Under the pieces are notes generated by a model. The model had not been told where the DNA came from and searched no databases. It was given only the letters and a program-made list of their open reading frames with translations. DNA of 41,811 nucleotides, from contig JAKASF010000005.1 in the NCBI GenBank assembly GCA_021828295.1, positions 1-41,811 on the forward strand, given 5' to 3'. The DNA is from Microcaldota archaeon (lineage in GTDB: Archaea > Micrarchaeota > Micrarchaeia > Micrarchaeales > CABMGC01). The translations under genes and the position numbers were made by a program. Every line of letters starts with the position of its first letter. Position 1 is the first letter of the stretch. Positions 4,252-41,811 of the stretch are shown here, piece after piece.

Positions 4252-5991
4252 GTGATAATCGGCTACGCGCTAACGGCCGCGGTGTACGCGTCGCTGATAC
4301 TGATGCTCGCTGCGGTAGCGGCGGACAGGAAAGGCATAGGAAAGCTGCTGCGCGGCTGTATCGACAGGCGTTCGCTCATAGCCCTCGGGGTCATACTCGC
4401 CTTCTTCCTGATATTCGCGGTCAGGTTTGTACCACATGCGGAGCAGCTCTACTTTGACGAGAACATATACCAGGGCATAGCGCTCAACATACTGCACCAC
4501 GGCAACTCCCTCTGGTGCCAGATAGGCACAGGCTACGAGAGCGCGTGTTACGGCAGCGTCCTCTACCACGACCCCGTCGGCTGGTCCGCGTTCATAGCGA
4601 TCGCGTTCGCGATATTCGGAGCGGGCACAGCGACGGCGTACAGCCTTGAGCTGCTGGTTGGCGCCGCTTCTATAGTGATGATCTTCCTACTCGCAAGCGT
4701 CCTGACGAAACGCAGGTCATATGCGGTAGTGGCAACTTTCGCGTTCGCCATGATGCCCCAGCTGTTCATCTGGTCCAGGACCCAGGCGGACTTCGACCTG
4801 CCGTTCATGATGCTCACTGTGCTCTCCTTCCTGCTTCTCGTGATCTACACAAGAAGGAAGAGCCTCGGCTCCTTTGCCGCCTTCGCGTTCAGCGTGGACC
4901 TGGTGGCCTACATGAGGATAGAGGCGTCGCTGCTCCTCGGGATCTTCGCGGTGCTCCTGCTTACGTTCGGGGAGGAGGGGATAAGGAATACGGTCGGGGA
5001 ACGGACGAGGGCGATACGCAGGGCGCTTGCAGAGAACACCCGTGCGCTTCTCGTGCTGCTCGCTTTCATACTGCTGATCCTGCCGCAGCTATACTACATA
5101 AGCGTAGAGGCGCAGAACCCATCTTATGGGCAGAACCAGAACCAGAGCGTGATCTCACTCGGCAACCTGGGATACAACATGGGCATAAACATCCCGTTCC
5201 TCTTCGGGAGCACGAACATGCTCAGCCTGTATCCGGCAAACTTCCACTGGCTGATAACCCCGCTAGCCATACTGGGGGGTATAGTGCTGGCGCTTGACAA
5301 GCGCATCAGGAACAGGTTCGGAATGCTGCTGATGCTCGCGCTCTGGTTTGCCGCCTACTTCGTGTTCTACGGCGTCTTCTTCGCCGGCTACGCGACATAC
5401 GGAGTGGACGTGAGGTTCATGCTCTCCCTGCTTCCTTCCATCTGCCTGCTTGCCGCGTTCGCGATAATCGGAATGGGAGACCTGGCGCGTTGGGCGCTGA
5501 CCAGGATGGATGCAATCAAGAAGAGGGGGCAGGCTTCGGGAATCGTGTTCGGCGCCGTCGTGGTCGCCGCCGGCGCGGTGCTGCTGGCCTATCCGTTCGC
5601 GACACTGGTGCCGCTCGTGGCCCTCAGCCCAAGCTCGATGCCGCAGCAGTCGGTCATACTGCCTGCGATCAGCTACTTCTATGCTAACAGCCAAGAGGTG
5701 CCGCGGAACTGCTTCGTCTTCTCCTTCACCCCGGAGATCTGGTGGGAAGCGAACAGGAGCGCCGCGGAGATATCCTATCTCACGGGCGGCAACAACAATA
5801 CTGTGAACCAAATAATATCCAGCTACAGCTGCAAGGTCTTCGACTACGGGTACTGGTGCGTGGTCCCGCCGTTCCACAGCACCCTCTGCGCCTCGGCGGT
5901 GTCGCGGTACGGACTCGTGGGTCTTGGCTCGAACGAGACTGCGGTTGCGGGAAGCAACGTCAGTTTCTACCGGATAACCAACTACACCTAG
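4252..5991 (+). CDS. GT39/PMT-like multi-span membrane glycosyltransferase
   Basis: A 579-residue polytopic protein with about ten membrane helices, a first loop containing Y-F-D-E-N-I-Y-Q-G-I near residue 66, and a soluble extracytoplasmic C-terminus (about 465-579) with several cysteines and N-x-S/T sequons. An acidic pair in the first outer loop is the catalytic signature of PMT/ArnT-type GT-C transferases that use polyprenyl-phosphate sugars. The start is GTG two bases after the carbamoyltransferase stop, so the two are probably translated from one mRNA. The stop overlaps the convergent gene by 4 bp. Family-level call only; the sugar and acceptor are unknown. Confidence 0.78.
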   Translation: MIIGYALTAAVYASLILMLAAVAADRKGIGKLLRGCIDRRSLIALGVILAFFLIFAVRFVPHAEQLYFDENIYQGIALNILHHGNSLWCQIGTGYESACYGSVLYHDPVGWSAFIAIAFAIFGAGTATAYSLELLVGAASIVMIFLLASVLTKRRSYAVVATFAFAMMPQLFIWSRTQADFDLPFMMLTVLSFLLLVIYTRRKSLGSFAAFAFSVDLVAYMRIEASLLLGIFAVLLLTFGEEGIRNTVGERTRAIRRALAENTRALLVLLAFILLILPQLYYISVEAQNPSYGQNQNQSVISLGNLGYNMGINIPFLFGSTNMLSLYPANFHWLITPLAILGGIVLALDKRIRNRFGMLLMLALWFAAYFVFYGVFFAGYATYGVDVRFMLSLLPSICLLAAFAIIGMGDLARWALTRMDAIKKRGQASGIVFGAVVVAAGAVLLAYPFATLVPLVALSPSSMPQQSVILPAISYFYANSQEVPRNCFVFSFTPEIWWEANRSAAEISYLTGGNNNTVNQIISSYSCKVFDYGYWCVVPPFHSTLCASAVSRYGLVGLGSNETAVAGSNVSFYRITNYT

Positions 5992-6804: not shown

Positions 6805-7689
6805 TCACTCTATGGCAAAGCTGCCAAGCGTCAGGTATATCAGCTTCGCGGCGAGGAAGTCGGGCGCGTGCAGGTATGGTATTGGGCAGAGCTCCACGAA
6901 ATCTGCTCCGGCGAGCCTCTTCTCCTCTCCTATGCCCCTGATGATCTGCAGCACCTCGTCAAACCGCATCCCGTTGGGCTCCGGGGTGCCGACGCTCGGC
7001 ATCTCCGCAGGGTCGAGGACGTCGAAGTCGAAGGTGAGGTAGATGCTCCCCTTTGTGGAGTTCAGCAGCCTGGAGACCACTCCGTCGGCCCCAAGCTCGC
7101 GCACATCGTCGATAAACAGGGTTCTGTCCTTGTCCAGCTTGGCCGCGTACTCGGCATCTACGCTTCTCACACCGATCTGGAGCAGGTCGGGGTAGAGCTC
7201 GGCGGCGCGCGCCATTACGGTGGCGTGCATGTACCTGGTCCCGTACAGCTCCTGCCTCGTGTCCGAGTGGGCGTCGAACTGCACTATGCTCAGGTCCTTC
7301 TTCCTCTCCTTGAGCGCCTGCAGGGCGCCTAGCGTTATCGTGTGCTCCCCTCCAAGCATCAGGGGCAGCTTGCCGTCGTCCAGTATGAGGCCTATCTCCT
7401 TCTTCACGCCAGCGACCATGTTCTCCGGGGAGCTCACGTCAGGCGCCATGCTCGGCAGCGTGTATATTCCTATCTTGCTCGGATCCGATTCCAGCTCGTA
7501 GCTGTAGAGCTCGATGTTCCTGCTGGCGTTTATTATCGCCTGCGGCCCCTCCCTGGTTCCGGACTTGTACGTCACTGTCGAGTCGTAAGGTACGGGCAGC
7601 ACAGCCACCTTTGCCTTCTCATAGGTCTGCCCCTCGAGGCCGAACAGGTTGTAATCGGGCATCGAGCGCAGAGGAATCTTGTCGGTCAT
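6805..7689 (-). CDS. speB: Agmatinase/arginase-family ureohydrolase
   Basis: Ureohydrolase that binds two manganese ions and splits a guanidino compound, most likely agmatine to putrescine and urea; formiminoglutamase- or arginase-like use cannot be excluded. The three metal motifs are present: G-G-E-H-T (near 113), F-D-A-H-S-D (near 139) and F-D-F-D-V-L-D-P (near 218). About 294 residues, normal for archaeal agmatinases. I chose the ATG at 7689; a GTG three codons earlier (7698) is also possible. It heads a two-gene unit with the downstream surface protein and is divergent from the UbiA gene. Confidence 0.87.
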   Translation of the reverse strand: MTDKIPLRSMPDYNLFGLEGQTYEKAKVAVLPVPYDSTVTYKSGTREGPQAIINASRNIELYSYELESDPSKIGIYTLPSMAPDVSSPENMVAGVKKEIGLILDDGKLPLMLGGEHTITLGALQALKERKKDLSIVQFDAHSDTRQELYGTRYMHATVMARAAELYPDLLQIGVRSVDAEYAAKLDKDRTLFIDDVRELGADGVVSRLLNSTKGSIYLTFDFDVLDPAEMPSVGTPEPNGMRFDEVLQIIRGIGEEKRLAGADFVELCPIPYLHAPDFLAAKLIYLTLGSFAIE

Positions 7690-39393: not shown

Positions 39394-39466
39394 GGGGAGG
39401 TAGGCTAGCTTGGTAGGCTTTCAGGTTTGGGTCCTGAAGACCCGAGTTCAAATCTCGGCCTCCCCG
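39394..39466 (+). tRNA. tRNA-Pro (anticodon TGG)
   Basis: Acceptor GGGGAGG pairs with CCTCCCC; D stem GGCT/GGCT with two G-T wobbles; anticodon stem TCAGG/CCTGA with loop TTTGGGT and anticodon TGG; variable loop AGAC; T stem CCGAG/CTCGG with loop TTCAAAT. No intron and no encoded CCA (discriminator G). The 3' part from the T loop onward is the start of the direct repeat that recurs 1845 bp downstream, so this tRNA is the likely target of an integration. Confidence 0.95.
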
Positions 39467-39537
39467 GATTTCAGTTTTTTCGACGACAAAATTCGGCTTG
39501 TCGTCGGTGCATGAGATTTAAACCCGAAGTAAGAAGG
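39448..39537. repeat. Left direct repeat, overlapping tRNA-Pro 3' end (att-like)
   Basis: The left copy includes the last 19 bases of tRNA-Pro, a T6 run, a 9-bp inverted repeat (CGACGACAA at 39481-39489, TTGTCGTCG at 39498-39506, 8-base loop), and a gatttaaaccc box. It aligns without gaps to 41293-41382. I count 11 mismatches in 90 positions, 8 of them in the last 82. Confidence 0.75.
39475..39480 (+). terminator. Poly-T terminator of tRNA-Pro
   Basis: Six T residues start 9 bp after the tRNA 3' end, followed by a GC-rich hairpin. Runs of T are the usual archaeal terminator; the hairpin may not be needed. The right-hand repeat has five T at the same place. Confidence 0.5.
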
Positions 39538-39664
39538 GACTGCCAGAAAACTGTACCATAGTTTATTGACGAGCGCAGAAACAGCGAAATCATCAGATTG
39601 GAAGAAGCGGTACTCAAAGGAATATATATTATGCAAGTGTAGACTTTGATATAAAGTTGGTTGC

Positions 39665-40138
39665 TTGGATTCCGAAGAGATACGGCATCACACCATTAAG
39701 GCAGTAATTTTCGACTATGGGAGAACTTTATACGATAGAGAAAATGGTAAGTTTTTCCCAGAGGCAAAAAGCGTTTTGGATTATTTGAGTCGAAAATATG
39801 TTCTAGCGATTGTATCGATTGCAAAGGAGGACCCGGCTGAAGAAAGAGTAGCGGCTCTAAAAAAGGCCGGTTTGTATGAGTATTTTTCCTCGTTGATGTT
39901 TCATGAGTCGGATAAGGGCCCTCTCTTTGAAGATACGCTGAAAAAACTTAATGTCAAACCTGATGAAATTGCAGTAGTTGATGATAGGGTCAAGCGAGGT
40001 ATAGCGTGGGGAAACAATAATGGCGCTATTACAATCTGGCTGCGGAGAGGTAAGTTTGCCGATGAACTTCCGGATGCAGAAACTGGAAAACCAACGTATG
40101 TAATTGGCAATCTGATCGAGATTAAAAATTTGCTTTAA
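39665..40138 (+). CDS. Small HAD-superfamily phosphatase-like protein
   Basis: A 157-residue HAD protein without a large cap. Motif I is I-F-D-Y-G-R-T-L-Y-D (nucleophile Asp17; the Asp+2 position is Gly19), motif II I-V-S-I-A (near 50), the lysine-containing segment follows, and motif III V-V-D-D-R-V near 100 is followed by G-A-I-T-I-W-L-R-R-G-K-F, a strand seen in short HAD phosphatases. Loss of Asp+2 makes hydrolysis uncertain. The start is TTG 39665, the first plausible codon; TATA-like boxes lie at 39622-39632 and 39650-39656. AT-rich, in the probable tRNA-Pro cassette, ending 2 bp from the convergent aldolase gene. Confidence 0.72.
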   Translation: MDSEEIRHHTIKAVIFDYGRTLYDRENGKFFPEAKSVLDYLSRKYVLAIVSIAKEDPAEERVAALKKAGLYEYFSSLMFHESDKGPLFEDTLKKLNVKPDEIAVVDDRVKRGIAWGNNNGAITIWLRRGKFADELPDAETGKPTYVIGNLIEIKNLL

Positions 40139-40140
40139 CT

Positions 40141-41088
40141 CTATTTATCGCTTCTAAGTATGTCGAGCAGATCGGGTTTTAGATTGTAGAGTTTGATGAC
40201 TTTTTCAATATCAGAATCTGAAAGAGGCACAAACTTGTTTGGATTAAGAAGCGACCTGAGCGCTGCAGTTGCAGCGTCTTCTACGTACTCTAAGAGATCG
40301 ACACACCGTTCTATTGTTCTTTCTCTGATAAATGCTCCGTGATGACTCCATAAAGTAAACCGGTGGTTGTTTATTGCTTCGAAGCTGTCGGATAGCAAAG
40401 CTTTCGAACCGGAGGGTTGATATGGAACTACACCTATCAGATCCGAAACATTGGTCAATACGCCTTCCTTTTGCGTATAAACTATCTTGTTCAGTTCAGC
40501 ATACGAATTGTTTACTTCTATATGTGAATTTACAGCCACGAGGTGAGGCGGGTGCGTGTGCAAAGCTGCCGATGAATCCAGGCCGTTTCTGAGATTTGAT
40601 GTGTTAGCGACTAAATGGGTCAGTGTTTCAATAGAAGGCACAATTCCGTACTCTTTGTTCCCAAACAGAAGATAAAAGCCATCGGCGTCTTGGTTGATTT
40701 CAAGGAGGCATAACCTTTTGTCGGGATTTCGGTCTACGTCCCACAGCTTCGCACCTGTAGCTGTTATCGGGACAACTTTTCCTGCCAGATCTCTAATCAA
40801 TGGTTTAATTGAATCTATGGGTACAGATTCGGCATTGTAATACGTCCTTCCGTCGTGTCTGATGTTTTTTAATTCGGCCAGGTGTTCAAATGATATCAAT
40901 TCTGTCTGTCTATGGAAAGCGCTTAAAACAGCATTTGTTCCTTCTTTGCCCATTACGAAACTTGCATTTCCAGCATTCGCAGGCAGATATCCCTTAAGAG
41001 CAAGGTGCCTAGAGAAACTCCCCAAATCGTTTATAAATTGGTCAAGTTCAGGAGTAACTCCTATAAGCTTGGTGTCCATTCTCCCCAT
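40141..41088 (-). CDS. Class II aldolase, rhamnulose-1-phosphate aldolase-like
   Basis: About 315 residues of the zinc-dependent class II aldolase/adducin fold. The substrate loop N-A-G-N-A-S is near residue 40, the metal histidines in L-H-T-H-P-P-H-L near 178, and the third in W-S-H-H-G-A-F near 248, followed by E-R-C-V-D-L-L-E-Y-V-E-D-A-A as in RhaD. These enzymes split a sugar phosphate to dihydroxyacetone phosphate and an aldehyde. It is longer than RhaD (about 274) and fuculose aldolases (about 215). ATG 41088 or 41079 are the likely starts; a TATA-like box lies near 41100-41108. AT-rich and inside the probable cassette. Confidence 0.82.
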   Translation of the reverse strand: MGRMDTKLIGVTPELDQFINDLGSFSRHLALKGYLPANAGNASFVMGKEGTNAVLSAFHRQTELISFEHLAELKNIRHDGRTYYNAESVPIDSIKPLIRDLAGKVVPITATGAKLWDVDRNPDKRLCLLEINQDADGFYLLFGNKEYGIVPSIETLTHLVANTSNLRNGLDSSAALHTHPPHLVAVNSHIEVNNSYAELNKIVYTQKEGVLTNVSDLIGVVPYQPSGSKALLSDSFEAINNHRFTLWSHHGAFIRERTIERCVDLLEYVEDAATAALRSLLNPNKFVPLSDSDIEKVIKLYNLKPDLLDILRSDK

Positions 41089-41529
41089 CAAATCCCAATA
41101 TAATTATAGTTTTCTGCGTATTTAAACAAAATCCTAGTTTTGTTTTAATAGCCAAACGACGAAATCAAAGGTCACAAAATATCGTTAACCATTAAACGCT
41201 ATAGAAAGGGCCCCTCACTCAAAGCGCGTAGGCCTCCTAGGGCTAGATAACTGTATATAGTTGTGTATCGTTTCCCCATTCTCACGTGACGCTCAGATAG
41301 CGGCCTCCCCGAATTTCGAGTTTTTCGACGACAAAACCCAGCTTGTCGTCGATGCATGAGATTTAAACCCGAAGTAAGAAGGTCTTCCATGGCTAAAAAG
41401 AAAAATGAACAAGCCCCTTGCTAAAAACAGTTCTCCCTTAAGGGGAATCCGCTCGTATAAGACTGGAACCGTTCAGCTACACAACCTTTTTAAACCTTAA
41501 AATTCAAGTAGCAACGCGGGTGATGGTGA
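41089..41529. other. Gene-poor AT-rich stretch with an inverted repeat and the right att-like repeat
   Basis: 440 bp without a convincing gene. It holds TATA-like boxes for the aldolase gene (41098-41108), an inverted repeat AAACAAAA-TCCTAG-TTTTGTTT (41124-41145), the right direct repeat (41293-41382), a 10-bp palindrome CCCTTAAGGG near 41440, and a tttttaaacc box (near 41488) for the following small gene. The short frames in it look like chance. Confidence 0.55.
41293..41382. repeat. Right direct repeat (att-like)
   Basis: This copy carries cggcctcccc, identical to 10 bases of the tRNA-Pro 3' end, but no tRNA. The 9-bp stems (41326-41334 and 41343-41351) are identical to the left copy while the loop differs at three of eight bases. 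The 3' part gatttaaacccgaagtaag is the same in both copies. Confidence 0.75.
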
Positions 41530-41679
41530 ATGGTAAAGGTAGTTGTATTCAAGATGTGCCCTCCAGGAGCGTGCCCTCGCATGCTGGTCAAGGAGGACAA
41601 AGTCACTTTGAGAGACGACTACAACAAAAAGGGTTTCTCTGTCAAGAACAGGTTACTGGCAAAGATTCAAACGCTGTAA
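41530..41679 (+). CDS. Small 49-residue protein with two cysteines, unknown
   Basis: From the ATG at 41530 to TAA at 41677-41679. The peptide begins V-K-V-V-V-F-K-M-C-P-P-G-A-C-P-R-M and continues V-K-E-D-K-V-T-L-R-D-D-Y; the C-P-P-G-A-C-P cluster could bind metal or form a disulfide. A tttttaaacc box lies about 35 bp upstream. It overlaps the convergent partial gene at its 3' end by 13 bp. A real gene is plausible from composition, but I recognise no family. Confidence 0.45.
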   Translation: MVKVVVFKMCPPGACPRMLVKEDKVTLRDDYNKKGFSVKNRLLAKIQTL

Positions 41680-41811
41680 TCTTCAGTTTCTATTACTTTT
41701 AGGTAGTTTTTGTAGTTCTCTAGATGGAAAGGCCACTTTCCAACCAGAACTTCAGTAAGCAACGCCTGCCTTATTCTTGGTTTTTCATCAGCCCACATGC
41801 GTTGTATCAGC
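41667..41811 (-). CDS. C-terminal part of an unknown protein, partial
   Basis: The 3' end of a gene running off the window; 47 residues are visible, ending E-T-E-D-Y-S-V before TGA at 41667-41669. The segment has R-M-W-A-D-E-K-P-R-I-R-Q-A-L-L-T-E-V-L-V and G-K-W-P-F-H-L-E-N-Y-K-N-Y-L, a soluble helical look. I cannot name it. It is convergent with, and overlaps by 13 bp, the small protein gene. Confidence 0.55.
   Translation of the reverse strand, partial: LIQRMWADEKPRIRQALLTEVLVGKWPFHLENYKNYLKVIETEDYSV

Follow-up and report, generated by a model that had tools for sequence, protein, structure and literature searches.

How do archaea with very small genomes come by new genes? Gene gain in ultra-small archaea, whose genomes are about 1 Mb or less, is poorly known, and the locus analysed here poses the question in a concrete form: two metabolic genes lie downstream of a tRNA-Pro gene, enclosed by two copies of a repeat, the first of which begins inside the tRNA. 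The window (the whole stretch of DNA that was analysed, 41,811 nt) is contig C25 of a Micrarchaeota assembly, labelled G000; the labels G001 to G096 denote other Micrarchaeota genomes. A sequence-only reading of the window had proposed that the two genes form a cassette integrated at the 3' end of the tRNA, and had suggested what might be looked for in related genomes.

A repeat search recovered the two direct repeats exactly as that reading had described them, 90 nt each and ungapped, with 79/90 positions identical (88%, 11 mismatches) and a start-to-start spacing of exactly 1845. The left copy does begin within tRNA-Pro(TGG), 19 nt before its 3' end as placed by ARAGORN, and the tRNA is intact (Rfam RF00005, 59.9 bits). 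The tRNA sequence exactly common to both copies is the 11-nt core CGGCCTCCCCG, which a search of the whole window places at 39456 and 41301 (+ strand in each case) and nowhere else. The direct repeat of the tRNA 3' end therefore flanks the first unit, cassette 1, on both sides and the tRNA is rebuilt, as expected of a tRNA-integrated tyrosine-recombinase element. The 768,693-base genome has no third copy of the 90-nt repeat, so that the alternative raised in the sequence-only reading, a repeat that follows many unrelated genes, was not borne out. The features of the locus are as follows.

39394..39466, + strand: tRNA-Pro(TGG), the anchor, whose last 11 nt (39456-39466) are the proximal core CGGCCTCCCCG
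39448..39537, + strand: left copy of the 90-nt repeat
39467..41311, + strand: cassette 1, 1845 bp, starting directly after the proximal core and including the distal core at its right-hand end, as given by the repeat spacing and by its absence from the same junction in G001
39467..39537, + strand: left-end module of cassette 1, with the inverted repeat CGACGACAA-N8-TTGTCGTCG at 39481-39506
39536..39582, + strand: inner left end of the cargo unit, matching the left end of a CTCCTGGGGC-type cassette in G001:C3 (83% identity over 48 nt)
39665..40138, + strand: HAD-like protein, 157 aa, TTG start (PF00702, E 5.8e-08; PF13419, 1.2e-07; CTE7, 2.9e-13, below cut-off)
40141..41091, - strand: class II aldolase, 316 aa, rhamnulose-1-phosphate-aldolase-like (PF00596, E 1.5e-14; NF002963, 1.5e-32, below cut-off)
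41198..41244, + strand: R1 right-end motif, ending in CTCCTAGGGC (41234-41243), with matches in G000:C9, G001:C3, G004:C9 (two) and G004:C11
41236..41311, + strand: R2, the motif that closes the tRNA-Pro unit on the right, with the distal core CGGCCTCCCCG (41301-41311) as its last part, also present in G001, G007 and G000:C19
41293..41382, + strand: right copy of the 90-nt repeat, comprising the end of cassette 1 and the left-end module of cassette 2
41312..41811, + strand: beginning of cassette 2, truncated where the contig stops

The remaining ~71 nt of the repeat is a left-end module, present in both units, in which folding allows a hairpin immediately 3' of the tRNA. A hairpin in this position could suggest that an RNA or terminator element belonging to the tRNA has been duplicated, with no role in mobility, an explanation to which we attach next to no probability: Rfam at a permissive threshold gave no match besides the tRNA, the module is missing after tRNA-Pro in G002, G003, G004 and G005, and a similar module follows another tRNA-like 3' end, one with an intron, in G073, which belongs to another genus (read by eye).

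At the tRNA the GC content drops from about 56% to about 42%. The HAD-like and aldolase genes are thus AT-rich genes bounded by the repeats, as had been claimed, but the low GC extends beyond the right repeat as far as the contig end (GC 0.42), since that repeat doubles as the left end of a second unit. The ORFs of cassette 1 are the HAD-like protein and the aldolase only, and the integrase gene usual for a tRNA-integrated tyrosine-recombinase element is absent, in agreement with the sequence-only reading. Judged by family membership, the cargo is likely to serve sugar-phosphate aldol cleavage together with a HAD-type hydrolase. Homologues of the aldolase were found in only 4 of 301 Micrarchaeota genomes, and the vertical synteny of the two genes that would have pointed to simple inheritance was not seen. 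One of these homologues, 57% identical, lies beside tRNA-Ala(CGC) in G096, where the 3' end of a HAD-like frame (read by eye) faces the aldolase at the contig edge (L193, G096:C6, 1-1267); this is the same convergent HAD/aldolase pair at a different tRNA.

The right end of the tRNA-Pro unit is conserved, with 51 of the 82 columns in the R2 alignment invariant. A scan with the R2 pattern matched only two same-genus records in the genome collection, the Candidatus Micrarchaeota MAGs YF1.bin103 and YP1.bin77, and nothing in the virus collection. R2 is about the size of a tRNA and begins near GGGG, and was considered as a decayed tRNA; Rfam lent this no support. Folded as single strands, the right ends showed no common structure.

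The insert-free tRNA-Pro site that an integration predicts was found in G001, a genome of the same genus. There, a single copy of the repeat comes after the syntenic ATPase gene and tRNA-Pro and leads into ~64 nt of the right flank seen in the window, with both HAD and aldolase missing; the right repeat region is 91.5% identical to G001 over 153 nt. Insertion into tRNA-Pro is well supported. Beyond the junction, G001 carries a 2.8-kb unit of its own, with GH10 and 2'-5' RNA ligase-like genes among others, that closes with the same R2 motif and core as cassette 1. The proposal of an integrated cassette consequently held, except that the cassette is not a lone insertion: it is one member of an array.

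Other relatives carry different cargo at the same site. In G007, of the window's genus, the unit is 0.9 kb long and includes a metallopeptidase-like gene (weak M1 match), and in G004 two short units lie one behind the other, the second of them carrying HicA. Overall, integrase-less units at tRNA-Pro in relatives span 0.56-2.8 kb, with GH10, metallopeptidase-like, HicA, VapBC and RelE/ParE-like cargo. At the same-genus loci the core, allowing up to 2 mismatches, marks the unit ends, against 0 or 1 chance match per locus on the reverse strand. We surveyed 73 tRNA-Pro loci, each followed by more than 400 bp of sequence, for a same-strand copy of the last 12 nt of the tRNA (up to 1 mismatch, within 11 kb), in genomes that are mostly fragmented drafts with many contigs ending near tRNA-Pro. 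A downstream copy was present at 13 of these loci, with none in the reverse-strand control. An integrase accompanied it at three (G037, G043 and G051) and was absent from ten, two of which (L146 and L147) rest on weak repeats and were not used.

The order of units is informative in G003, where tRNA-Pro(CGG) is followed in tandem by VapBC and then by a RelE/ParE-type pair. The second of these shares 71% DNA identity with the only unit that G024, a member of another genus, has at this tRNA. The order fits a unit added between the tRNA and an older one, as serial insertion predicts. These loci have what is expected of an additive island, namely a conserved tRNA with repeated 3' ends and a number of cassettes that varies among relatives. 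In G002, self-comparison also showed direct repeats of 41-105 nt, up to 97% identical, ~10-18 kb downstream of tRNA-Pro (L085 and L027).

A probable continuation of the window's array was found on a second contig of the same assembly, G000:C19. From its end, this contig carries a glycosyltransferase gene, followed by an R2 end whose core is degraded, a VapBC unit and a type-B end with an exact core, then a 3.8-kb stretch with a Fic/Doc-type gene, another type-B end, and backbone genes syntenic with those downstream of tRNA-Pro in G004 and G007. In the part of C19 closest to this end ARAGORN detected no tRNA, and the ends of C25 and C19 do not overlap. Given the end motifs on C19, its VapBC unit bounded by a tRNA core and the synteny with G004 and G007, the two contigs most likely belong to a single array that has at least four units, the join being placed by synteny across an unassembled gap. 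The R2 motif at G000:C19:58962-59037 would then probably be the other end of cassette 2.

The VapBC unit on C19 is 87% identical over 965 nt to the VapBC unit in G003. The homology starts at the tRNA 3'-end core, and the left neighbours differ, being an R2 motif in one case and tRNA-Pro(CGG) in the other. This boundary bears on the possibility that units move by homologous recombination after DNA uptake, through the tRNA 3' end and the end modules and with no site-specific enzyme. The left-end module and the right-end motifs do give the units tens of bases in common; we nevertheless regard this route as very improbable, since the homology of moved units starts at the short core, the exactly shared tRNA sequence in the window is 11 nt only, and the anchors include different tRNAs. 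A further VapBC pair, with ~70% DNA identity to that on C19, lies beside a broken integrase of the local family in G009 (L062, G009:C54, 221-2122), and is possibly an autonomous relative of the cassette.

The end motifs also revealed a second type of cassette, bounded by the core CTCCTGGGGC. Units with exact or near-exact CTCCTGGGGC ends, related to R1, were found in three genomes at the following loci, and no tRNA was detected close to any of them.

G000:C9 (L064), 965-2395: CTCCTGGGGC array
G004:C11 (L068), 4336-5020: CTCCTGGGGC array
G004:C9 (L067): CTCCTGGGGC array
G001:C3 (L066), 4270-5580: CTCCTGGGGC array

A RelE-like cassette at G000:C9 is 86.8% identical to that at G004:C11 over 689 nt, with the homology running from core to core. 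Upstream of and including the first core is a 98-nt stretch, here called the P-site, which is identical at two G004 loci and is found with 90% identity directly before R2 in G001. As both the R1 end and the inner left end of the window's cargo match CTCCTGGGGC-type cassettes, the window cassette is probably a CTCCTGGGGC-type cassette nested inside a tRNA-Pro unit.

Which enzyme could move such units? The sequence-only reading had looked to a tyrosine recombinase encoded elsewhere. A coherent family of tyrosine recombinases does occur in relatives, with the catalytic R, HxxR, H and Y conserved (assigned by eye). Its members match Pfam Phage_integrase; the closest NCBIfam model is the archaeal XerA, at a score far below cut-off, and the closest solved chains are 4a8e and 5hxy. 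In G051 the integrase ORF begins within tRNA-Pro, and in G013 an integrase adjoins another tRNA. In G000 itself, by contrast, Pfam and local-family alignment searches found no member, an empty result that by itself shows little in an assembly 88% complete. Neither core stood out beside the integrases of the genus, where there were only scattered one-mismatch matches, none convincing.

A link between this family and the cassettes comes from the motif CGACGACAA. It lies just downstream of both integrase-linked tRNAs, in G051 and G013, and just within each terminus of the 9-kb integrase element in G051. The window has four copies, all within the two repeats, where 0.33 would be expected, and within 150 nt after tRNA-Pro the motif is ~35x denser than further downstream (7 and 9 matches, the window's locus included). 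CGACGACAA would thus be a candidate arm-binding site of the recombinase, and the XerA-like enzyme found beside tRNAs in relatives most likely acts in trans. Larger elements with their own integrase are also present in these genomes. The G051 element (L082, 6470-15622), at tRNA-Pro, includes a DNA methyltransferase-like gene and an 833-aa ATPase-like gene (by eye), possibly a defence module. In G001, an integrase ORF (L072, G001:C3, 6451-7480) overlaps an intron-containing tRNA (7339-7478) with a match to the tRNA tail ~7.4 kb away, which looks like a separate, larger integrated element.

Such elements raise the alternative that the units are decayed remnants of integrase-bearing elements, inserted successively at tRNA-Pro, that have lost the integrase and are no longer mobilised in trans. 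Integrase-bearing elements do occupy tRNA-Pro in G043 and G051, integrases occur at the G037 repeat, the VapBC relative in G009 has its broken integrase, and the empty search of G000 fits as well. Decay is nonetheless harder to reconcile with the finding of the same integrase-less VapBC unit, with the same left boundary, in two contexts in two genomes. The right-end motifs are conserved despite different cargo, and the cargo ORFs are open; separate decay to one small form is less likely than a small form that moves. We therefore regard this alternative as unlikely.

The explanation that we favour, and hold to be likely, is that integrase-less cassettes have accreted in tandem at the 3' end of tRNA-Pro through a recombinase acting in trans, with the HAD-aldolase unit as the first in the array. 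Each unit would comprise a left end, cargo of one or a few genes, and a right-end motif whose last ~11 nt copy the tRNA end; in this subgroup the left end would be the module with the inverted CGACGACAA pair. Recombination, presumably through a circular intermediate, would take place between the unit's own copy of the core and the tRNA 3' end, with each insertion rebuilding the tRNA and pushing the previous unit outward. An XerA-like tyrosine recombinase would be supplied in trans, with CGACGACAA as its arm-binding sites, and may still be moving cassettes today; right ends are of several types, so one enzyme may not serve all of them. The HAD-aldolase cargo probably moved first as a CTCCTGGGGC-core cassette and later inside the tRNA-Pro unit.

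More tentatively, and with rather less than even confidence, we envisage a two-tier capture system in Micrarchaeota that is independent of integrons. Its CTCCTGGGGC cassettes would be held in non-tRNA arrays with an attI-like P-site and could be loaded into tRNA-end carriers, defined by the left-end hairpin module and R2, with the XerA-like family serving both tiers in trans.

If this reading of the array is correct, these archaea would collect and swap packets of one or two genes at fixed places, much as integrons do, with no integrase per packet, which would explain why metabolic and toxin-antitoxin genes specific to individual strains lie next to tRNA genes in these genomes. The defined ends, the candidate enzyme family and the candidate arm motif make the idea directly testable. 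We found no prior report of such a system for Micrarchaeota in the open-access literature.

A functional parallel exists with integrons and CALINs, the latter also described as hitchers (PMC11389934). Like these, the array consists of tandem one- or two-gene cassettes, often with toxin-antitoxin cargo, each with its recombination site and a common core, and no local integrase. Archaeal integrons have been reported (PMC9668308), and a true integron or CALIN, with IntI and attC, might be envisaged here; we consider this highly improbable. A simple core-pair scan, as distinct from a covariance model, found no RYYYAAC...GTTRRRY pairs in four array stretches, no IntI-type integrase emerged from the G000 search, and the XerA-like integrases of relatives scored 28.4 and 20.1 bits against the 265-bit NCBIfam integron-integrase cut-off. 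The anchor, moreover, is a tRNA 3' end. As these integron features were looked for and not found, the system works like an integron cassette array and is not a member of the integron family.

Tycheposons share the tRNA anchor, the metabolic cargo and the link to a tyrosine recombinase, but are described as 4-200 kb elements at a tRNA with a tyrosine recombinase (PMC10872708), whereas cassette 1 is 1.8 kb and has none. The cryptic integrated elements of Thaumarchaeota, 2.6 to 98 kb with a median of 17 kb (PMC6563490), are likewise archaeal, integrated by tyrosine recombinases and recognised by direct repeats; unlike the units here, they have not been presented as arrays whose members hold one or two genes. 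When cassettes are added one after another at a tRNA whose end is repeated, the result is already known as an additive flexible genomic island, described in bacteria for Alteromonas fGI1 (PMC4119200) and for fGI-2 of Ca. Methylopumilus, along which the last 20 nt of tRNA-Lys are repeated (PMC10872708). In both settings a conserved tRNA is the cassette target, its 3' end is repeated, and the number and cargo of the cassettes vary among strains. The array described here differs in belonging to a Micrarchaeote, in the small size of its units (~0.56-3.8 kb), in their conserved end modules and in an apparently nested second type of cassette.
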